7,433 nt of DNA from Bacteroidales bacterium (GTDB lineage Bacteria > Bacteroidota > Bacteroidia > Bacteroidales > P3), in contig JAFWOP010000071.1 in NCBI GenBank assembly GCA_017545365.1, forward strand, positions 1 to 7,433, written 5' to 3'. The translations under genes and the position numbers were made by a program. Positions 1 to 7,433 of the stretch are shown in pieces (the first letter of the stretch is position 1; each line of letters begins with the position of its first letter). The notes under the pieces are model-generated. The model was not told where the DNA came from and made no database searches. It worked only from the letters and a program-made list of their open reading frames with translations.

Positions 1-13
1 GTTGACGTCTTAA

Positions 14-592
14 CTATAAGTCCCGCGTGTAGAGAGCCCTGTATTCGGCAGGGGTGAGTCCCAGGGCATCGACCAGTTTGCGCTGCATGGTGCGCACGTG
101 CTTGAAGCCTGAATCCTCGGCAATGGAAGCGATGTTGTAGTTCGGCTTTTCACGAAGCAGGCGCATAGCCGACAGCAAACGGAAATTGTCGATATAAGCC
201 TCGGGGGTGCGGTACATCGACTTGTTGCGGAAAAGCTTGTCGAGGCGCTCCTTGCTGACGCCTACCAACTTGGCAAGGGCCGCAGCGTCGAAATCTGGGT
301 CGAGATGAAGGCGCTCTCCCTCCACTTTCGTCTCGACGATGGCCATCAGCTGCCCGTCGTCGCGGAGGTCGGCATTCTGTATTCGTTCTAAATTCATGTC
401 GATGAGCTCGCGTGCCACCTCGACACGCTGGCGGAACTGCATGTAGTCCTCGATACGGTCTGTGAGGTCGAGATTGCGATGCATCAGGCGCACGAATTGC
501 TCCCGCGTATAGTCGAGCTGCTTCCTAAGCTCGGCATTCTCAGCTCGCAACTGCTCGTTTTCCGCCTGCAACTGTTTCTGGTTGTCTGCCAT
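14..592 (-). CDS. AraC-type DNA-binding regulator with N-terminal leucine zipper
   Basis: A 192-residue predicted cytoplasmic transcription factor. Residues about 85-188 form an AraC/XylS-type double helix-turn-helix: the first HTH is around 102-124 (ALAKLVGVSKERLDKLF) and the second around 152-175 (IASIAEDSGFKHVRTMQRK), followed by the typical family ending LGLTPAEYRALY. In place of the usual cupin or periplasmic sensor, residues 3-60 are a charged coiled coil with leucines at 8, 15 and 22 and repeated AEN units, like a leucine zipper; this should mediate dimerisation or partner binding. It is the last gene of the operon, starting 2 bases after the STAS gene stop. A good Shine-Dalgarno AGGAGGG (605-599) lies 6 bases before the ATG, inside the end of the STAS gene, which supports this start and suggests translational coupling. 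Its DNA-binding domain resembles that of the TPR regulator at the other end of the window (shared PDF and SKER stretches). The family is confident; the target genes and signal are unknown. Confidence 0.9.
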   Translation of the reverse strand: MADNQKQLQAENEQLRAENAELRKQLDYTREQFVRLMHRNLDLTDRIEDYMQFRQRVEVARELIDMNLERIQNADLRDDGQLMAIVETKVEGERLHLDPDFDAAALAKLVGVSKERLDKLFRNKSMYRTPEAYIDNFRLLSAMRLLREKPNYNIASIAEDSGFKHVRTMQRKLVDALGLTPAEYRALYTRDL

Positions 593-594
593 GA

Positions 595-900
595 TCAGCC
601 CTCCTGTTCAAAAAGCACAAAAAATCCGCCGACCTCAAACACATCGTTCAACTTTTCGCTGACATGGGTCATGATACACCGCCGTCCGATGTCGTGCTGG
701 TGCTTGTAGATACCTATAAAGAGGCGAAGCCCGCTCGACGAGATATACTCCAGTCCGCTACAGTCGATCTCTACGTCGTGGTCAGTCTGCTGGGTCAGCG
801 GAGCCAAGGCCTTCTTTGCTTCGATGCAGGCGGTATTGTCGAGCTCGCCAATGAGCAATGCTACCAGCCGGTCGTTCTTTTCTGTTATTTTTATCTCCAT
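595..900 (-). CDS. STAS-domain anti-sigma factor antagonist (SpoIIAA/RsbV-like)
   Basis: A 101-residue single-domain protein of the usual length for SpoIIAA/RsbV antagonists. The core motif is DCSGLEYISSSGLRLF (residues 46-61). By alignment with B. subtilis SpoIIAA, the phosphorylated serine corresponds to Ser55, the middle serine of SSSG. The N-terminal strand with LIGELDN (16-22) and the C-terminal VFEVGGF (88-94) also match the family. In such systems the unphosphorylated antagonist binds the ATPase and releases its captive partner, and phosphorylation by the ATPase inactivates it. Its neighbour 3 bases upstream is exactly such an ATPase, so the two form a partner-switching pair. No PP2C/SpoIIE phosphatase, needed to reactivate the antagonist, lies in the window. 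The family assignment is strong; the identity of the final partner is not shown. Confidence 0.93.
   Translation of the reverse strand: MEIKITEKNDRLVALLIGELDNTACIEAKKALAPLTQQTDHDVEIDCSGLEYISSSGLRLFIGIYKHQHDIGRRCIMTHVSEKLNDVFEVGGFFVLFEQEG
599..605 (-). promoter_or_regulatory. Strong Shine-Dalgarno of the AraC-type gene
   Basis: AGGAGGG on the minus strand, six bases before the ATG at 592, lying within the last codons of the STAS gene. It stands out because the other genes in the window lack a clear Shine-Dalgarno sequence. It suggests efficient, coupled translation of the last operon gene. Confidence 0.7.
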
Positions 901-903
901 ACC

Positions 904-1323
904 TTAATGTATTTTTATGTTACTATGGTTTCCTAATGCTTTCCAGACGGTCAGGATGTTCTTTCCGTCCTCTCGGCGATAGGCCACGCCGTCACTCATC
1001 TTGCGGATGTAGAGGATGCCAAGACCACCGATGGCGCGCGTCGCTATGGGCTGAGTCAGGTCGGGCTCGGGATGCCGGGTAGGGTCGAAGGGGATGCCGT
1101 CGTCGGTGAAAGATACATAGAGTCTGCCGTCCTCCTGCCAGGCGCGGAGCTCCATCATGGTAGCTCCGCTGTAGTTCACAATATTTGCCACAGCCTCTTC
1201 GATGACCAGGTGCAGGTTCTGCGTCTGACGCTCACTGAATCCTGCGTCATCGGCTATGGAGAGGGCAAACGCTCTGGCGCGCCTCACCTCGTCCATATCC
1301 ACTTTTAGTTCAAGCCTCGTCAT
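904..1323 (-). CDS. RsbW/SpoIIAB-like anti-sigma ATPase (serine kinase)
   Basis: A 139-residue GHKL/HATPase_c protein, the usual size of SpoIIAB/RsbW serine kinases. The N box is EEAVANIVN (residues 42-50, with Glu43 and Asn47 in the E-x3-N arrangement), the G1 box is DDGIPFDP (74-81), and the G2 box is GGLG (99-102) followed by ILYIRKMSD. These are the ATP-binding elements. It should phosphorylate the STAS protein encoded immediately downstream and sequester a partner when the STAS protein is phosphorylated. The frame is open up to 1617, but the extension reads into the end of the hydrolase gene and gives low-complexity Arg/His-rich sequence; the ATG at 1323 begins the conserved domain and lies about 20 nt after the predicted transcription start. 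Bacteroidota are not known for SigB/SigF orthologues, so the partner may be something other than a sigma factor, possibly the AraC-type protein of the same operon (inference). Confidence 0.92.
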   Translation of the reverse strand: MTRLELKVDMDEVRRARAFALSIADDAGFSERQTQNLHLVIEEAVANIVNYSGATMMELRAWQEDGRLYVSFTDDGIPFDPTRHPEPDLTQPIATRAIGGLGILYIRKMSDGVAYRREDGKNILTVWKALGNHSNIKIH

Positions 1324-1350
1324 CGTCGTACAAAATGCTGATTCTGACTG

Positions 1351-1382
1351 CAAAGGTAGTTTTTTTTTTTGAATCATACAAA
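1351..1382 (-). promoter_or_regulatory. Bacteroidota-type promoter of the partner-switching operon
   Basis: On the minus strand, TTTG (1382-1379), a 20-base spacer, then TACCTTTG (1358-1351). This is a full match to the Bacteroides sigma consensus TTTG-N19-21-TAnnTTTG. Transcription should start near 1345, about 20 nt before the ATPase ATG. The spacer contains 11 consecutive A residues (1370-1360). The promoter starts only 16 bases after the hydrolase stop codon and I see no terminator between them, so read-through from the hydrolase gene could add to expression. Confidence 0.8.
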
Positions 1383-1397
1383 TAAATGGAAATAAAT

Positions 1398-2825
1398 TTA
1401 CCAGTTCCCGATCCTTACATTCGACATCCATTTGATACAGGTCATCAGATGGCCGTCGGTTCCTGCCATGGAGATGTCGAGCGTGGCCATGTCGGGGAAG
1501 GCTGCCATCACTGCCTCCGAGTTGGCAAAGCCCACGTAGGTATCGTTCTTGCCGTGATAGAGGTGGATGGGGTGAACGGGCTTCCAGCCTTTGGTCAGGT
1601 CGTTCTTGTCGAGACACTCGAAGAGGGCCTTGCTCATAGCCGACTCTGGATTGATCACTTCGGGATTCAGGATATCCGTCAGCCAGATCTGCTCGCCGTC
1701 CTTGATGCCTGCCTCGCCCTTGTGGGGGAAGATCTTGAATATCTCTTTGTTGATGGGACCGGAGGCGTACTCCTTGCTGCTGATCATGTAGTCCACCACG
1801 CTTTTATGCTTCAGATAGGCCTCACTGTAGAAGTCCTCTTCCTTCCACTTCCCCAGGATCTCTGGATAGGCGGCAAACATAGCCTTCAGCGTGAGCGGGA
1901 GCACAATGGGATAGTCGAGCTTCTTCTGCTTGAAATACTCCTGGAAGGTCACCACGGGGCTGTAGGGGCCACAGGCACAATAGCTGTACTCGAAGCGCCA
2001 GCGCTGGGCGAAGTCGAGATGGGTGTCGAGCCACTTGTGGATGGCCAGTGCGTTGGCACCGCCCTGCGAGCATCCTGTCACATAGAGCCTCCAGTCTGGA
2101 TCCATGGACACCTTGCTCATGTCGGCAAACACCTTGTAGCCGGCCTTCAGCGCATCGATGCTGTTGCTGGTGCAGAGGTCGTGGTTGATATAGGGGTGTA
2201 CGCGGTCCTTGCTGGCGCCATAGCCCAGATAGTCGGGCATGATGAGCAGCCTGTCGCCCTGCAGCAGGGCGTTCTCCAGCGAGGCGTTCCTGGTGGGAGT
2301 CTCGTAGTCGCCGGCAATCGTGGAGTGGGGGCAGAGCGCCATGTACTTAGGACTGATCTCTCTGCCCATGATGTCCATGCCCCAGCAGACGCGTGCCGAC
2401 AGGGTGACGGGCTTGCCCTGCTCGTCGATGCTCTCGTAGTTGAAGTCGATGTAACGGTAGCCCCAGGTGGCCTTGGGTGTGGCCGTGCGGGTCATGGCAC
2501 CGCGCTGCTGCTGTTCTGCCTCGCTGCGCAACTGATTGACGTAGGCTTCCACGTCGGGATCGCACTCCGAGCCATTCACGAAATTCCTCAATACCTCTTC
2601 CAGCCCGGCTTCCTGGTCGTTCGTCACCTGATACTTCACGTTGGCTACATCCACTGCCAGTTCTTCGCAGTTGGCAGCACTTCTGGTCAGAGCCTGTTCG
2701 GTCTCAACGCCTGAATTGTTTTCCGTGAGGAGGTCATCATCCTGCGAGCAAGATGCGAAACTGAAAGTAACTGCGGTAAGCATGCTCATGAGCATTGTCT
2801 TTACCAAAAATGAATTCTTTTTCAT
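1398..2825 (-). CDS. Predicted surface lipoprotein, alpha/beta-hydrolase (lipase/esterase-like)
   Basis: A 475-residue protein with a lipoprotein signal peptide (charged MKKNSF, hydrophobic core, lipobox FASC, lipidated Cys26). SQDDD directly after Cys26 resembles the Bacteroidota signal for export to the outer surface. The catalytic domain spans about 120-475: PDYLGYGAS (197-205) is typical of secreted lipases, the nucleophile elbow is GCSQGG (Ser253), the likely acid is Asp428 in HGKND, and the likely base is His459 in DGHL. Together these form a plausible Ser-Asp-His triad for hydrolysing an ester of unknown nature (lipid, acylated glycan or similar). Residues about 30-118 form a polar N-terminal region I cannot assign. 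The ATG at 2825 is chosen because it gives the complete signal peptide, nearly identical to that of the MACPF protein. There is no Shine-Dalgarno; the leader is AT-rich. Promoter and leader are shared with the MACPF gene except for a 91-bp insertion, so co-regulation is likely. A peptidase activity is not excluded. Confidence 0.88.
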   Translation of the reverse strand: MKKNSFLVKTMLMSMLTAVTFSFASCSQDDDLLTENNSGVETEQALTRSAANCEELAVDVANVKYQVTNDQEAGLEEVLRNFVNGSECDPDVEAYVNQLRSEAEQQQRGAMTRTATPKATWGYRYIDFNYESIDEQGKPVTLSARVCWGMDIMGREISPKYMALCPHSTIAGDYETPTRNASLENALLQGDRLLIMPDYLGYGASKDRVHPYINHDLCTSNSIDALKAGYKVFADMSKVSMDPDWRLYVTGCSQGGANALAIHKWLDTHLDFAQRWRFEYSYCACGPYSPVVTFQEYFKQKKLDYPIVLPLTLKAMFAAYPEILGKWKEEDFYSEAYLKHKSVVDYMISSKEYASGPINKEIFKIFPHKGEAGIKDGEQIWLTDILNPEVINPESAMSKALFECLDKNDLTKGWKPVHPIHLYHGKNDTYVGFANSEAVMAAFPDMATLDISMAGTDGHLMTCIKWMSNVRIGNW

Positions 2826-2876
2826 TGTTCTTTTTATTTTTTATTGTTTATACTTATTTTCTGTTTGACGATGCAA
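2748..2876 (-). repeat. Duplicated leader plus signal-peptide segment, hydrolase copy
   Basis: This 129-bp stretch aligns without gaps to 5311-5439. The coding part (2748-2825, codons 1-26) differs at one base in 78, a Met/Val change at residue 11; synonymous positions are identical. The untranslated leader (2826-2876) matches at about 43 of 51 positions. Homology stops essentially at the lipobox Cys codon, apart from a short QDDD stretch. Such identity between otherwise unrelated proteins indicates recent duplication or gene conversion. Confidence 0.92.
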
Positions 2877-2967
2877 GTGAAGTGCAAGGCGAACGCAGAG
2901 GCGAACTTGTTCGAGCTTTGCTGAGCCGCAGCCTTCACTCGCCGTTGCAACTTGTTTGCGACGGCAA
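2877..2967 (-). repeat. 91-bp insertion in the hydrolase 5' UTR, possible structured element
   Basis: Present in the hydrolase copy of the duplicated cassette and exactly absent from the MACPF copy; the flanks on both sides align without gaps. It is bordered by GCAA on each side (2873-2876 and 2964-2967), so its ends are uncertain by 4 bases. It contains a 7-bp inverted repeat (AGTGAAG 2876-2882 with CTTCACT 2933-2939) enclosing two small hairpins: CGAAC/GTTCG (2902-2906 and 2909-2913) and GCTG/CAGC (2920-2923 and 2929-2932). AGGCGAAC occurs twice at a 12-base interval (2887 and 2899). There is no coding potential. It may be a small non-autonomous interspersed repeat or a regulatory RNA element; the sequence alone does not decide. 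Confidence 0.75.
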
Positions 2968-2995
2968 AGGTACGGCGATTTTGGCCCCGTTCCAA
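2965..2995 (-). promoter_or_regulatory. Bacteroidota-type promoter of the hydrolase gene
   Basis: On the minus strand, TTG (2995-2993), a 20-base spacer, then TACCTTTG (2972-2965). Transcription should begin near 2958, giving a leader of about 130 nt that includes nearly all of the 91-bp insertion. The -7 box is identical in the MACPF copy; the -33 region is not conserved between the two copies. Confidence 0.7.
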
Positions 2996-3016
2996 CGAAA
3001 AAGATGTTTTCCGGCG

Positions 3017-3083
3017 GAGAAGCCTATGGCGCATATACGAAATTTGCGACAGAAACGGCAAACCTTGCCATAACTGTCGCAAA
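3017..3083 (-). repeat. 67-bp upstream repeat, copy next to the hydrolase promoter
   Basis: Identical at all 67 positions to 5489-5555; with two or three mismatches the similarity runs on towards the promoter. It lies upstream of the hydrolase promoter and just downstream of the MACPF stop codon. Homology ends abruptly at 3083. Noncoding sequence this conserved suggests a bound site or very recent duplication. Confidence 0.93.
3043..3083. promoter_or_regulatory. 41-bp nested inverted repeat, candidate operator (copy 1)
   Basis: Outer arms TTTGCGACAG (3043-3052) and CTGTCGCAAA (3074-3083) are perfect 10-bp complements. Inner arms GGCAA and TTGCC flank a 3-base loop, with 4-base unpaired stretches between the inner and outer arms. 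Outer-arm centres are 31 bp apart, about three helical turns. It lies about 48 bp upstream of the hydrolase -33 box, a position suited to an activator. It begins 25 nt after the MACPF stop and could also form a 3' hairpin in that mRNA, but no U-run follows, so a terminator is less likely. Confidence 0.65.
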
Positions 3084-3108
3084 ATCCCTTTTGAAGATTG
3101 TCTGTTGA

Positions 3109-5388
3109 TTAGTCAGCCAGCACGTAGCGCACTGCCATACGGTCGATGCCGAGATAGCTCTTGTGGATGTTGATGGCACCGCTGGACTTGATATCTACGT
3201 AGCCGTAGGAGTCGTTCTTGCCCTCAATCTGTATCAGGTACTGCATCTGCTGGCCGCTGCCCTCCACTGAGCCGTTGCGCATGTAGCCGTCCCACTTCAG
3301 GTCGAAGCCTGTCTCCTTGGCGCGTCCGTAGTTCTGCAGCAGCAGTATGGGGAATGAGTTGGTGCCGCTGGCGCTGATGCCCTGCTTGAGCAGCTCGAAG
3401 TCGCGGTCGGATGCGATCTCCCATCCCTGGATGCCGCTGCGGGCGATGCTCTTGTTGGAGTAGTAGCGTGAGCACCTTGAGAGTCCGTCTTCCACTTCGC
3501 CCTGATAGTCCTCACGGGTCCAGATGCGGTTGAAGATCTTCACCAGCGGATAGTCCTTCTGGGTGCTGATGCCGCCTGCGCATGTCATTCCCTCCATGTA
3601 GGCATCCTGGAGCTTGGCCCTGCGTACCTCCTGTCCCTGAGCCAGCTTGGTGCTGACGGAAGTGCCTTGCAGGTAGATCTTGGTGGGCGTGCCGTAGTCG
3701 AGCTGCACGTATGGGGTGATCTTGGGCTCGGCACTGTCCTTACGCCAGTTGACGCGGCTGGGCTTGTGCTCCTCATCGCCGAGGAATACGCCCTGGTTGA
3801 GTGCCAGCTTGCCGTTGACGACGGGGTAGATGACGGTGACGCGCTCGTCCTTGTTCAGCTGTGGGATGTACTCGTTGCATGCGATGCCCACTCGCTCGCC
3901 AGAGAGCATGATGTTCTTCACCAGTGTCTTGCTGTAGGCATCAAATGAGGGAACCTCGATCTCCGTCACGGTGCCGGTCTGGGCGGGGGCATAGTCTGCG
4001 CTCATCGTGCCGGGGCCCTGGCCCTCCATGTAGTTGCGGATCTCCTGCTTGCGGGCCTCGGTGCTTGCCAGTTCGTAGATGGGGATGAGGTCGCCTTCTT
4101 CGAAGCCTACCATGACCATTGCCGTATCCTGGATGGATGTCTTCCACTGGTCGAGGGTTGACGGAGTCACCTCGTAGGTCATCTTGTCCACGCTCTCCTG
4201 CGTGCCGCCCACCACGTTGAGCTTATGCCGGCAATAGCCCATGTCTTTCTTATAGCTCTTCTTGAACTGATCGCTGCATTTCAGCAGGTCTTTCTCGCCG
4301 ATGGCGATGCGGGCATAGAGGTCCAGGTCGTAGGTGTCGCTGACGCTGTCGGTCTTGATGTCGAGGGTGGAGCGTATGCGGCCGCCGATGCGTGCTCCCT
4401 TGACCATATGGGTGCCGAAGTCGCGGATGAGGTTCTTCACGCCCTCCTTGCCTTTATACTCCTCCATCTCGCCGTTGATGGCCATGGCGGCATCCTCGTT
4501 GATGTACTTTCTCAGCAGGCCTATGCCCGGCTCAATCTGCATACGGCGCACGCCATAGTTCAGATAGCTGATGGCATAGTCGTGGCACTCTGTCTGATTG
4601 TTGTCCATGCCGAAGGCGGCTCCTACCTCGAAGGTGAATGGCAATGTCAGCTTCTTGGCGTCCTTTTGTTTCGGGGTGTCGCTCGACACTTGTTCCTTGG
4701 TGTCGCTCGACTCTTGTTTCGGGATGTAGCTCAACATGTGTCCCAGGCTGTCGCACATCGCGTTGACCAGACCGTCGCGACTGTTGGCTGTATAGTGCTC
4801 GTAGGTGATCTCAGCGTTGAGGTTGCTCTGTGTGAATTTTTCCTGATCGAGCAGCTTGTTGACATCCAGGATCTTGGATGTGATGGCGTTGTGGTTGTTG
4901 TAGCCCTTCAGCGTGCTGTAGCCGTAGCCGATGCTATACACGCGGTTGGAGGTGGGCACCAGGCTGATGGCGCGGGTCACGCTCTCACTGCAGCCCTTCT
5001 GCACGATCTCCAGCACCTGGCGTTGCTCGCGTCCCTGCCCGTCGGTCGTGATGATGGTCATGTGGCCCTGCTTGCGCTCGTCGTAGCGGTTGTCCTGCAC
5101 GTAGATCTTGATTACCTTCGGACCGATGCCCTCTTCCTCGCTCAGGGTGAAGAAGTAGCGGTCTTGCTCGATGCGCCACTTGCCGTTGGCCTTCACCGTG
5201 AAGGGCATGGTGTAGGCGTGGCCTTCCACCAGGATGTCGCCGTCGCCGATGGTCTGGCTGGCGTTAGTGTTCTCTACCATAGCATCTGTATCCATGAAGT
5301 CGTCGTCCTGGCAAGATGCGAAACTGAAAGTAACTGCGGTAAGCATGCTCATGAGCACTGTCTTTACCAAAAATGAATTCTTTTTCAT
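3109..5388 (-). CDS. MACPF-domain lipoprotein with BACON-like and FISUMP-like domains
   Basis: A 759-residue predicted surface lipoprotein. Signal peptide 1-25 with lipobox FASC and lipidated Cys26 is followed by QDDD, like a Bacteroidota surface-export signal. Residues about 48-132 resemble a BACON domain (FTVKANGKWRI, then a strand pattern ending VLEIVQKG). Residues about 150-440 are the MACPF pore-forming domain, shown by the signature DFGTHMVKGARIGG (323-336). Residues about 615-755 resemble the FISUMP domain (IWTREDY, GIQGWEIASDRDFELL). Known Bacteroidales MACPF proteins include the BSAP antimicrobial toxins, which kill related strains by membrane damage, so an antibacterial role is plausible here but unproven. 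No immunity gene is obvious. A hydrophilic segment (220-243) consists of three 8-residue repeats. The ATG at 5388 is chosen for the complete signal peptide. It shares promoter, leader and signal peptide with the hydrolase gene downstream. Low-homology stretches between domains (about 440-615) are unassigned. Confidence 0.92.
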   Translation of the reverse strand: MKKNSFLVKTVLMSMLTAVTFSFASCQDDDFMDTDAMVENTNASQTIGDGDILVEGHAYTMPFTVKANGKWRIEQDRYFFTLSEEEGIGPKVIKIYVQDNRYDERKQGHMTIITTDGQGREQRQVLEIVQKGCSESVTRAISLVPTSNRVYSIGYGYSTLKGYNNHNAITSKILDVNKLLDQEKFTQSNLNAEITYEHYTANSRDGLVNAMCDSLGHMLSYIPKQESSDTKEQVSSDTPKQKDAKKLTLPFTFEVGAAFGMDNNQTECHDYAISYLNYGVRRMQIEPGIGLLRKYINEDAAMAINGEMEEYKGKEGVKNLIRDFGTHMVKGARIGGRIRSTLDIKTDSVSDTYDLDLYARIAIGEKDLLKCSDQFKKSYKKDMGYCRHKLNVVGGTQESVDKMTYEVTPSTLDQWKTSIQDTAMVMVGFEEGDLIPIYELASTEARKQEIRNYMEGQGPGTMSADYAPAQTGTVTEIEVPSFDAYSKTLVKNIMLSGERVGIACNEYIPQLNKDERVTVIYPVVNGKLALNQGVFLGDEEHKPSRVNWRKDSAEPKITPYVQLDYGTPTKIYLQGTSVSTKLAQGQEVRRAKLQDAYMEGMTCAGGISTQKDYPLVKIFNRIWTREDYQGEVEDGLSRCSRYYSNKSIARSGIQGWEIASDRDFELLKQGISASGTNSFPILLLQNYGRAKETGFDLKWDGYMRNGSVEGSGQQMQYLIQIEGKNDSYGYVDIKSSGAINIHKSYLGIDRMAVRYVLAD
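4660..4731 (-). repeat. Three 24-bp in-frame repeats inside the MACPF gene
   Basis: Three imperfect 24-bp units encode SYIPKQES, SDTKEQVS and SDTPKQKD (residues 220-243), a hydrophilic Ser/Asp/Lys/Gln-rich stretch within the MACPF domain. The DNA units share GTCGCTCGAC and CTTGTT. The copy number can change without breaking the frame. Confidence 0.75.
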
Positions 5389-5439
5389 TGTTCTTTTATA
5401 TTTTTATTGTTTATACTTTATTTCTGAATCACGATGCAA
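5311..5439 (-). repeat. Duplicated leader plus signal-peptide segment, MACPF copy
   Basis: The counterpart of 2748-2876. It covers codons 1-26 up to and including the Cys codon (5313-5311) and the 51-base leader. In this copy the leader is joined directly to the promoter with no insertion, so the whole cassette from Cys codon to inverted repeat (5311-5555) is 245 bp against 336 bp for the hydrolase copy. Confidence 0.92.
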
Positions 5440-5470
5440 AGGTACGGTGATTTACGGCACAAAAAGCAAA
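5437..5470 (-). promoter_or_regulatory. Bacteroidota-type promoter of the MACPF gene
   Basis: On the minus strand, TTTG (5470-5467) at the end of a 9-base T run, a 22-base spacer (slightly longer than the usual 19-21), then TACCTTTG (5444-5437). Transcription should start near 5430, leaving an AT-rich leader of about 40 nt without a Shine-Dalgarno sequence. The -7 box is strong; the -33 assignment is less certain. Confidence 0.68.
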
Positions 5471-5488
5471 AAAAAATGATTTCCGGCA

Positions 5489-5555
5489 GAGAAGCCTATG
5501 GCGCATATACGAAATTTGCGACAGAAACGGCAAACCTTGCCATAACTGTCGCAAA
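5489..5555 (-). repeat. 67-bp upstream repeat, copy next to the MACPF promoter
   Basis: Identical to 3017-3083. Here it lies in the divergent intergenic region between the MACPF gene and the TPR/AraC regulator, where no gene ends, so its conservation cannot be explained by a role as a terminator. Homology ends abruptly at 5555. Confidence 0.93.
5515..5555. promoter_or_regulatory. 41-bp nested inverted repeat, candidate operator (copy 2)
   Basis: Same structure as copy 1: arms TTTGCGACAG (5515-5524) and CTGTCGCAAA (5546-5555), inner GGCAA/TTGCC. It is about 45 bp upstream of the MACPF -33 box and about 78 bp upstream of the -7 box of the divergent regulator gene, so one bound protein could influence both directions. 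Confidence 0.65.
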
Positions 5556-5632
5556 GGGCAGAGGAACCGTGGGAATGATGGCGTTTTTTTACATTTTTAT
5601 CTCAACTGGCTTATAATCTCGGAAATTTTATC

Positions 5633-5640
5633 TATCTTTG
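5633..5640 (+). promoter_or_regulatory. Probable -7 box of the TPR/AraC regulator gene
   Basis: TATCTTTG matches TAnnTTTG exactly and lies 26 bases before the ATG, giving a predicted leader of about 20 nt. I see no good TTTG at the -33 position (the sequence there is ACTGGCTTAT), so the promoter may be weak or depend on an activator. Confidence 0.6.
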
Positions 5641-5666
5641 CAGACGGTTTTGAACAGAACAAGGAT

Positions 5667-7433
5667 ATGAGACATCATATATATATAATGGTCGTCGTTG
5701 CCATCGTGCTGGTGTTGGCGGGCTGCAAGGGGGGAGGCGCCGATAACAAGCGTGCGGCGCAGGCTGTAGAAAGGCTACGGGTAGGCGAGTCGAGTGACTC
5801 GGCAATTTCGCACTACACGGCGGCGTATGCCATGACGTTTGTGGACACAGAGCCTGAGCGTGCCCTACAGCTCATCGACTCAGCCCGGTTGGCGGGCAAT
5901 CTGTCGGATGTCCGTGCCGATATTCAGCGGGCCAGAGTCTATGGACGGTCGCATGCGGAAATCAGAACCGACTCTGCCATCCTGATTGGCGAGCGCCTCA
6001 TGCGCCACGACTCTGTCATGGCCGACTACGACCTTCAGATAGACGTGCTCGAGATCCTGCTCGATGCTTACCGGCTGGAGAGGGACTATGAGCAGGCCCT
6101 GCACTGGGCCACCCGGCTGAGCGACGTCTATCGTGAGCACGACATGCGCCACCTGCAGTCATACAGCAATGCCGAGATCGGCGCCCTGATGGTTCGCATC
6201 GGGCAGCAGCAGGAGGGACTGGCCCGCATCGACAGCGCGGTACAGCAGCTGGCAGGGCACCGGCACTACACAGAGATGAACCTCGCCCTGCTTGCATTGA
6301 AGCGCAAGGCGGACGTCGCCGCAGAGACAGGGCGCTACCAGGCGACGACAGATGCCGCACAGCAGATGCTCGCCATGCTGGACGACTTCGAGCAGCACCC
6401 TGCCGACTACTATGACCAGGGCAACAGCTACAGCGGCATCACCGTCGAGGAACGTCCGCGCTACATCGACTTCTACCGTAGCCGGGCATACTCATTCCTC
6501 GCCTTGGCAGCGGCATCACAACATCAGCCGCAGCAGGCCATCCACTATCTCGACCTCTACGGACAGACGGATGCGAGCCAGACCCTTCATGGGCGCTATG
6601 TGACGACACCGACACTCTGTCGACTGGGACGCTACGACCGTATGCTGGCCATCTATGACGAGGTGGAGCAATCGATGGCCGACGACACGCTGAACGCCAA
6701 CTACGCCGACATCCTGCGCGGCAGGGCCGAAGTGGCCCAGTCGCAAGGGCACCCCGTAGCCGCCAACGGCTACTGGCGGCGCTATGCCGACCTGAGCCAG
6801 CAACTGAGCGACTCGCTCCTCAGGGGCAAGGCCCACCTCTTTGCCGCCCGCTACCACGCCCAGGAACAGCAACGCGAGATAGAGCAGCAGCGAGCCGGCA
6901 AGCGCATCGCCGATACCATCAGCATTGCCACTGGCAGCCTCGCCCTGCTGATTCTTGCCTTTGCCCTGTATGCCTTCCGCCAGTGGCGTATCACTCAGCA
7001 ACGCAATCGCATCCTTGCCCAGCAGATTACCGAGGCGGTGGAGTATAAGGAGAAATACCGTAAATTGAGCGTTTCAGCCGAACCGTCAGTTCACTCGGCT
7101 AAACCTGAGTTAGCCATCTCCGATTTCACCGAACTCTCCGACGAGCAACTCTTCCTCTGCCTACGCGACCTGATAGAGAACGAGCAACTCTTCCTCCAAC
7201 CCGACTTCGGCCGGCAGTCGTTGATTGACCGCACCGGTCTCTCGAAGGAGCGCATCGGTGCCGCCTTCGCGCAGGGCAGTGACAGTGTTTCACTGCCGGC
7301 ATACGTCCGCGAACTGCGCCTCGACTATGCCATCCGCTTGCTGAACGACCAGCCCGACCTCACTGTCGAGCAGGTCAGTCAGGCCAGCGGCTTCACCAGT
7401 GCCGACACCTTCACCCGCAACTTCCGCGCCAAG
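5667..7433 (+). CDS. TPR-type sensor/AraC-family regulator with membrane anchor (3' end missing)
   Basis: The frame is open from the ATG at 5667 to the last base (589 codons, no stop). Residues 1-20 form a hydrophobic N-terminus ending in a consensus lipobox LAGC (Cys20), followed by KGGG. Residues about 45-400 are alpha-helical with TPR-like repeats (for example DYEQALHWATRLSDVY, 140-155), expected in the periplasm. A transmembrane segment spans about 418-437 (ISIATGSLALLILAFALYAF) and is followed by the basic, cytoplasmic RQWRITQQRNR. Residues about 495-589 are an AraC-type domain with first HTH SLIDRTGLSKERIGAAF and second HTH TVEQVSQASGFTSADTFTRNF; probably only some 10-20 residues are missing. 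This is a common Bacteroidota one-component architecture, with periplasmic TPR sensing and cytoplasmic DNA binding. The ATG at 5667 is preferred over the one at 5688 because it supplies an n-region before the hydrophobic core. It is divergent from the MACPF gene, which makes that gene and its cassette plausible targets. Confidence 0.92.
   Translation, partial: MRHHIYIMVVVAIVLVLAGCKGGGADNKRAAQAVERLRVGESSDSAISHYTAAYAMTFVDTEPERALQLIDSARLAGNLSDVRADIQRARVYGRSHAEIRTDSAILIGERLMRHDSVMADYDLQIDVLEILLDAYRLERDYEQALHWATRLSDVYREHDMRHLQSYSNAEIGALMVRIGQQQEGLARIDSAVQQLAGHRHYTEMNLALLALKRKADVAAETGRYQATTDAAQQMLAMLDDFEQHPADYYDQGNSYSGITVEERPRYIDFYRSRAYSFLALAAASQHQPQQAIHYLDLYGQTDASQTLHGRYVTTPTLCRLGRYDRMLAIYDEVEQSMADDTLNANYADILRGRAEVAQSQGHPVAANGYWRRYADLSQQLSDSLLRGKAHLFAARYHAQEQQREIEQQRAGKRIADTISIATGSLALLILAFALYAFRQWRITQQRNRILAQQITEAVEYKEKYRKLSVSAEPSVHSAKPELAISDFTELSDEQLFLCLRDLIENEQLFLQPDFGRQSLIDRTGLSKERIGAAFAQGSDSVSLPAYVRELRLDYAIRLLNDQPDLTVEQVSQASGFTSADTFTRNFRAK

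Follow-up and report, generated by a model that had tools for sequence, protein, structure and literature searches.

A repeated 5' module heading unrelated lipoprotein genes in a Bacteroidales bacterium: a probable regulated surface-display cassette

In Gram-positive bacteria, the YSIRK system couples a class of signal peptide to an adjacent AraC-type regulator, and in mycoplasmas the phase-variable Vsp/Vsa lipoproteins are expressed selectively with a recombinase. RhaS and AraC recognise half-sites composed of two boxes about one helical turn apart, in sites located upstream of the promoter, and promoters of Bacteroidetes carry the -7 consensus TAnnTTTG. In the papers cited, Bacteroidales secreted antimicrobial proteins (BSAP) are presented as surface lipoproteins with an export signal, C11 proteases are discussed as their possible cleavers (PMC12853789), activation of BSAP-3 with the protease DpnB is mentioned (PMC9308784), SDDDD is given as the lipoprotein export signal consensus of B. 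fragilis (PMC5080379), and this signal is linked to vesicle packing (PMC6222051). The titles and abstract openings listed in searches of open-licence papers contained nothing on the system described here, which is located in a 7,433-nt stretch of a Bacteroidales bacterium (contig JAFWOP010000071.1 of assembly GCA_017545365.1, positions 1 to 7,433; hereafter the window). Two lipoprotein genes of the window, encoding a hydrolase and a MACPF protein, share a repeated 5' stretch, which is probably (about 0.7) a regulated surface-display cassette, placed within one array in front of several lipoproteins whose mature parts differ. Its parts would be an operator (a 41-bp dyad and a weak third box), a Bacteroidetes-type promoter at a fixed distance, a leader, a lipoprotein signal peptide, and an acidic export signal.

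Both genes lie on the minus strand. The alpha/beta-hydrolase (esterase-like) lipoprotein of 475 aa is encoded at 1398-2825 (phmmer match to esterase 3h2i, E-value 2.1e-09; no Pfam match at 0.001) and the MACPF lipoprotein of 759 aa at 3109-5388. Their signal peptides with the lipobox Cys, at 2748-2825 and 5311-5388, are identical at 77/78 nt (MKKNSFLVKTMLMSMLTAVTFSFASC versus MKKNSFLVKTVLMSMLTAVTFSFASC), and upstream of the two genes the longest identical run, which extends from the dyad edge through GGCTTCTC, measures 67 nt. Both figures are those of the original prediction made from the window sequence, and a repeat search of the window recovered both blocks, one at 90% over 140 nt and the other at 97% over 86 nt. 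The 67-bp block holds a 41-bp imperfect dyad, TTTGCGACAG-N21-CTGTCGCAAA, at 3043-3083 for the hydrolase gene and at 5515-5555 for the MACPF gene, both on the minus strand, and a TAnnTTTG -7 box of a predicted promoter (TACCTTTG, at 2965-2972 and 5437-5444, minus strand) is located 70 nt from the dyad in both copies. The length of 245 bp given in the prediction is correct for the MACPF gene; in front of the hydrolase gene the module measures 336 nt, owing to about 91 additional leader nt that the alignment places within the 5' untranslated region. The abrupt edges that had been proposed recur in non-orthologous pairs, with the correction that the module does not end at the Cys codon: homology in the window pair stops 15-18 nt past it and takes in the acidic residues that follow, SQDDD (2733-2747) in the hydrolase and QDDDF (5296-5310) in the MACPF protein, both export-signal-like and on the minus strand. 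The mature proteins were said to be unrelated, and gave no mutual blastp match at 1e-5. As judged from its length, its identity, and its recurrence in other genomes, a chance origin of the likeness is excluded. Within the MACPF gene, three imperfect in-frame repeats with 24-nt spacing were also seen at 4663-4754, in a KQESSDTKEQVSSDTPKQ-like stretch.

The nearest genome is that of Prevotella sp. RGIG5155 from sheep abomasum (G001, a draft), in which a matching region is carried by contig C27; contig C28 repeats the left end of C27 and is redundant with it. C27 matches window positions 1-2853 at 98.8% and 2948-5555 at 92.9%, and the match stops exactly at the outer edge of the MACPF dyad. The extra leader DNA of the hydrolase copy (2854-2947, minus strand, defined by the gap between the blastn pieces and by alignment) occurs in the leader of the C27 phosphatase but not in that of the C27 hydrolase. 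It was considered as proof of exchange with the phosphatase leader and left unused, because a deletion in the C27 hydrolase leader explains it equally well.

Dyads were found on C27 at 767, 3047, 5965, 6620, 7225, 9925, 12450, 15448, and 25062. The array, on one strand, starts with a lipoprotein with a weak Exo_endo_phos match (just under cut-off) and an 852-aa lipoprotein without a Pfam match, continues with a Y_phosphatase3 protein, a BspA-type leucine-rich repeat (LRR) protein, the MACPF protein, and the hydrolase, followed by orthologues of the HATPase, STAS, and AraC-type genes of the window and a Peptidase_C11, and then has a response regulator with a SpoIIE domain, a protein with weak propeller matches, a propeller-HATPase_c kinase, and a TonB plug protein. 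The mature parts of the array genes are mostly unrelated to each other. In C27 pairs with unrelated mature parts, homology starts at the dyad edge and stops 8-18 nt past the Cys codon. The more distant C11 gene (68% identity) retains homology to 34 nt past Cys, a pair in genome G226 (G226_711 and G226_EEP) to 54-57 nt, and the LRR gene, which has the signal peptide and lacks a dyad of its own, shares homology from -43 and not from the dyad edge. Because homology usually ends in or just after the acidic residues, the operator, promoter, leader, signal peptide, and export signal appear to travel together. The original prediction had named several copies in front of unrelated lipoproteins as support for a shuffling cassette, and such copies were found in G001, G226, and G185; a duplication confined to the two window genes is ruled out, since the module heads a lipoprotein array in G001.

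An exact scan of the genome contig collection with the dyad arms matched 27 stretches, of which 18 were titled Prevotella or Prevotellaceae; one further stretch (L010) shares the C11, AraC-type, STAS, and HATPase genes. Eight of the 27, from other named bacteria and without the window core, were attributed to chance and excluded from the dyad alignment, which also omits four Prevotella stretches with another core (L007, L011, L017, and L020) and the redundant C28 copies and repeats of fetched contigs (L001, L004, L006, L018, and L023). Five viral-contig stretches that fit the dyad pattern but lack the window core were also taken as chance, and a plasmid search with the hydrolase cassette gave no match.

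In 28 of 40 dyads (from 18 sources) a TA[AC]CTT[TC]G box was present within 140 nt, and it was located at exactly 70 nt in 28/28; 27 of these boxes are strict TAnnTTTG and one has TTCG, and an additional TAnnTTTG lies at 39 in L080:18118. In four copies (L002, L016:4779, and L021 twice) the inner spacer, nt 26-70, matches that of the window at 11-14 of 45 positions, which is near chance. The dyad is thus probably an operator, and a regulon is favoured because the promoter box stands at a fixed 70-nt distance from it. A combined operator-promoter score gave 53 hits in 60 loci and 0 in reversed sequences (36 hits in the window and dyad-chosen loci and 17 in 40 regulator-only loci, two being duplicates between overlapping loci). 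A window-type composite gave 54 hits in 25 of 398 genus genomes against five reversed-control hits, a total that counts the redundant C28 copies of G001 as well as three readings of the same dyad on the opposite strand. In G001, 11 window-type operator-promoters were counted, and the 10 among the matches listed are all on C27 or C28.

A local tandem duplication with gene conversion of one lipoprotein 5' end, under which regulation would be ordinary and the shared upstream DNA would reflect ancestry, agrees with this clustering, as close copies of the signal peptide found in G001 are all on C27 and the redundant C28, and with the 95.8% identity of the C27 hydrolase and MACPF leaders. It is nevertheless considered unlikely, given that the mature parts of the array genes are mostly unrelated, that the dyad and its 70-nt distance are kept where the intervening DNA is unrelated, and that the same operator plan recurs in the three-box sites of 67 of 299 genomes described below.

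The alternative that the dyad is no operator and represents a dispersed palindromic repeat or a recombination site (of the repetitive extragenic palindromic or integron type) would account for the abrupt start of homology at the dyad edge, where similarity between the window and C27 also breaks, and for the position of 6 of 9 C27 dyads, which begin 11-28 nt beyond the stop codon of the gene before them. Directly upstream of a dyad in L048 lie two pieces of a DDE transposase, and the same 22 nt (ATAATTCACTTTTTTTAGTTCT) abut this dyad (640-767) and, in a second species, a dyad of L087 (upstream of 7181). An operator is favoured instead by the constant spacing to the -7 box, by the A.C mismatch that 10/40 dyads carry at one position of the stem, and by the retention of three boxes in a wider family in which the hairpin interior varies. 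Furthermore, a Pfam scan of 12 C27 and six window open reading frames (ORFs), which excluded small ORFs and the last C27 ORF, identified no recombinase or integrase, and only the DDE transposase pieces at the left end of C27. A repeat or recombination site is therefore regarded as improbable. An RNA hairpin, for instance the terminator of the upstream gene, is the least probable of the alternatives and hardly credible: the dyad can form a stem with long arms and often follows soon after a stop codon, but a terminator scan of 2700-5700 was negative at the dyads, the dyad is upstream of the promoter box, and 10/40 dyads contain the A.C mismatch. As a separate observation, L083 carries identical 41-bp dyads in opposite orientation at 7122 and 8079, 957 bp apart, with no promoter box at the fixed distance.

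Exchange of parts was examined in the signal peptides. A DNA search of six genomes with the window signal peptide gave 19 hits, all but one on dyad-bearing contigs; the remaining hit is weak and lies near a paralogous regulator. Between the hydrolases of G226 and the window, the mature proteins are 85% identical and the signal peptides differ (MKTKFLSVMMFSAMIATTSC in G226; 56% DNA identity), which, on comparison of the two species, is one clear signal-peptide replacement. Conversely, G185_860 and G226_711 share 96% of their signal-peptide DNA and have mature parts that are only distantly related (26%), while for the relatives c27_852 and G188_822 the signal-peptide DNA is identical and the mature parts are 65% identical. 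The spacer of the window MACPF gene (nt 26-70) matches the G185 copy L082_6544 at 40/45 positions and the C27 MACPF copy at 30/45; its signal peptide, by contrast, is 100% identical in DNA to that of the C27 hydrolase. Such mixed copies look like mosaics and are consistent with homologous recombination. The term mobile, used in the original prediction, was not borne out: the array genes that were scanned include no recombinase, and gene conversion or homologous recombination is a sufficient explanation. The suggested extension across the genome is correct only in part, as the G001 copies listed are all on C27 or C28, and it is a diverged three-box operator that is spread through other genomes of the genus. 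The broader claim of a co-regulated, recombining module is largely supported by the fixed 70-nt spacing and the edges recurring in non-orthologous pairs.

In divergent hits a third box was recognised, which led to the composite TGCGACA-N24-TGTCGCA-N12-TGTCGCA-N52-TAnnTTTG. With at most three mismatches, this composite gave 257 hits in 67 of 299 genus genomes and 0 in the reversed control, and was found in 10/301 genomes of a family sample that overlaps the genus; on these counts, it seems to be concentrated in this genus. The window dyad looks like a variant of this wider element: its second box is displaced by one base, its third box is weak (3 or 4 of 7 positions in most array copies, and up to 6 elsewhere), and in either type box 1 lies about 109 nt from the -7 box. 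Across the wider family, the hairpin interior varies while the three boxes stay. Several further observations were made on this family. In L153, L159, L160, and L173, a three-box operator comes after an AraC-type gene and precedes the gene of a small protein (143-145 aa), a recurring target; the single one of these proteins that was scanned, in L159, gave a PepSY_like match. Four three-box operators with related third-box contexts (TCGCAACAACTC) occur within 3.2 kb in G089:C111:15136-18336, perhaps a second kind of array. A common non-coding stretch that starts with a variant dyad and has a second three-box operator about 100 bp further on was seen at L048:5965-6290, L016:7002, and L087:7141.

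The candidate regulator is encoded, on the minus strand, at 14-592 and is an AraC-type protein of 192 aa (Pfam HTH_18, 3e-15), adjoined on the same strand by a STAS protein of the anti-sigma-antagonist type at 595-900 (Pfam STAS, 1.6e-12; NCBIfam ant_ant_sig, 7.5e-16, above cut-off) and an RsbW-type HATPase_c_2 switch kinase at 904-1323 (Pfam HATPase_c_2, 3e-22). An AlphaFold model of the regulator (mean pLDDT, the predicted local distance difference test, 84.3) consists of one long helix at residues 2-74 and a domain with two helix-turn-helix (HTH) motifs. The best fold match was the DNA-binding domain of E. coli AraC (2k9s, E-value 8.8e-04), with AdpA and MarA domains also matched, so that HTH_18 and the fold place the protein with the C-terminal two-HTH domain of AraC/XylS members; beyond the HTH domain no other domain was recognised, and the single 73-residue helix is present instead. 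Each half-site of the dyad, TTGCGRCAG-TTAT-GGCAA, contains two boxes 11 bp apart, which would fit reading by a two-HTH monomer.

Relatives of the regulator at E <= 1e-15 were present in 88 of 299 genomes, and three-box operators were found in 56 of these 88 against 11 of the 211 others (Fisher 1e-26, without correction for kinship). In 40 neighbourhoods, together 515 kb, for which the regulator was the sole criterion of choice, 11 strict operators occurred in 10 loci, where 0.55 were expected from the operator density in the same genomes, an enrichment of about 20-fold (Poisson 2e-11). STAS genes adjoin 36/40 of these regulators and an HATPase_c_2 or a SpoIIE-HATPase sensor 33/40; in 33 of the 40 paralogous loci both STAS and an HATPase or sensor are nearby on the same strand. 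Three paralogous sensors were scanned, all with SpoIIE, HATPase_c_2, and Cache/PDC-type matches and two with HAMP, one of these under cut-off. The operator heads the sensor operon itself in L154, L161, and L140, which suggests feedback, and in L157, L158, and L177 it heads a lipoprotein gene preceding the sensor operon, with a C11 gene between them in L158; the neighbour of such an operon in L087 is a MACPF lipoprotein whose signal peptide belongs to the same class. The STAS and HATPase_c_2 genes of the window, with the response-regulator-SpoIIE gene further along C27, make up an RsbUVW-type gene set. Its neighbouring gene is AraC-type and not a sigma factor, a finding that concerns this neighbourhood, since the rest of the genome was not searched for one.

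The AraC-type protein of 14-592 is therefore the likely activator of the dyad. That the operator is real and is bound by some other regulator, such as the divergent protein encoded on the plus strand at 5667-7433 (C-terminal HTH_18 by Pfam, cut by the window end), is a minor possibility, a little below that of a local duplication: this gene adjoins the MACPF dyad, but G001 has the dyads and only a 27% identical best relative of this protein, and operators are enriched near the AraC family of 14-592 instead. The N-terminal part of the 5667-7433 protein was read by eye as TPR-like and gave no Pfam match.

Several results weigh against a regulated cassette controlled in this way. No box was scored for 12 of the 40 dyads, among which L085 had been scored in the wrong orientation and does have a box, L080:7444 is probably also misoriented, and L082:7771 has a one-letter variant; the others look like remnants or other element types. 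Some dyads, including two in L083 and one in L086, have no evident gene downstream, and no ORF of at least 80 aa starts within 450 nt of 14/66 operator hits. Signal peptides of an LVKxxLMSxLTA class speak for the cassette, having followed the operator in 24 of 30 cases, compared with 5/45 for other lipoproteins and 12/456 for other ORFs, but this count is biased, as the window and loci selected by the dyad make up 18 of the 58 loci and the motif was written after examples had been seen; in the 40 regulator-chosen loci, the class followed the operator in 5 of 9. Thirty of the 40 regulator neighbourhoods lack an operator under the strict pattern (26/40 by the looser score), 11 of the 67 three-box genomes have no AraC relative at 1e-15 (several are draft metagenome-assembled genomes), and G188, G216, and G244 contain window-type dyads and no regulator relative, perhaps through a draft effect. 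Finally, the wider operator also precedes genes that do not encode lipoproteins, PepSY-like ones among them, so that its set extends beyond lipoproteins and the coupling of regulation to the special signal peptide is not strict.

For the preferred reading, a regulated cassette, the following sequence of events is proposed. A SpoIIE-type phosphatase would remove phosphate from the STAS protein, which would then bind the RsbW-like HATPase so that the AraC-type protein is released or activated. A dimer of this protein, held by the long N-terminal helix, would bind the inverted TGCGACA/TGTCGCA boxes, with two boxes 11 bp apart making up each half-site, and would activate RNA polymerase while located 70-110 bp upstream of the -7 box. 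The cassette-headed lipoproteins, including the pore-forming protein, the C11 protease, and the hydrolase, could in this way reach the surface together, and homologous recombination between cassettes may join the same 5' module to different mature parts and rearrange arrays at the dyad. As a set, the array products are likeliest to be coordinated surface tools for antagonism or foraging, and, given the link of the export signal to vesicle packing (PMC6222051), they may also be shed. More tentatively, and at slightly under even odds, this may be one branch of signalling throughout Prevotella in which partner switching drives AraC-type activators and not sigma factors, and in which, in the array branch, the three-box operator, promoter, signal peptide, and export signal have fused into one portable module into which recombination plugs pore-forming proteins, proteases, and hydrolases.

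If this is correct, a cell would gain surface weapons already wired into a command circuit, and the three boxes with the promoter box would provide a readable address for a regulon hidden in a genus that is common in gut and rumen. Candidate effectors, surface and secreted, could be listed by scanning for this address, and several of them have no Pfam match. The locus would also be an example of partner switching whose output is not a sigma factor, and a clear case, in bacteria, of regulation and export moving between genes as a unit.

Compared with the described systems, the locus combines features of several. As in the YSIRK surface antigens (TIGR04094), a special signal peptide class occurs with a dedicated AraC-type regulator, although TIGR04094 itself was matched here weakly and far under cut-off. 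As in mycoplasma Vsp/Vsa, a conserved promoter and signal peptide are joined to different mature parts, with the difference that nearly every array gene here has its own cassette, suggesting co-expression. The MACPF protein shares with BSAPs a MACPF domain (PF01823, 6.4e-10), a lipobox, and an acidic stretch after the Cys (CQDDD); it gave no PDB sequence match, and a C11 protease is located in the same array on C27. The two-HTH DNA-binding domain of the regulator is that of the AraC/XylS activators RhaR, RhaS, and AraC, whereas here a 73-residue helix replaces their other domains, the site is an inverted repeat with a third box 70-110 bp upstream of the -7 box, and the window-type regulator is encoded with partner-switch genes. 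SpoIIE phosphatase, STAS, and HATPase_c_2 are grouped as in the RsbU-RsbV-RsbW and SpoIIE-SpoIIAA-SpoIIAB systems; in contrast to these, the third gene encodes an AraC-type regulator instead of a sigma factor, and the three paralogous sensors scanned fuse SpoIIE and HATPase_c_2 behind a Cache/PDC-type sensor.

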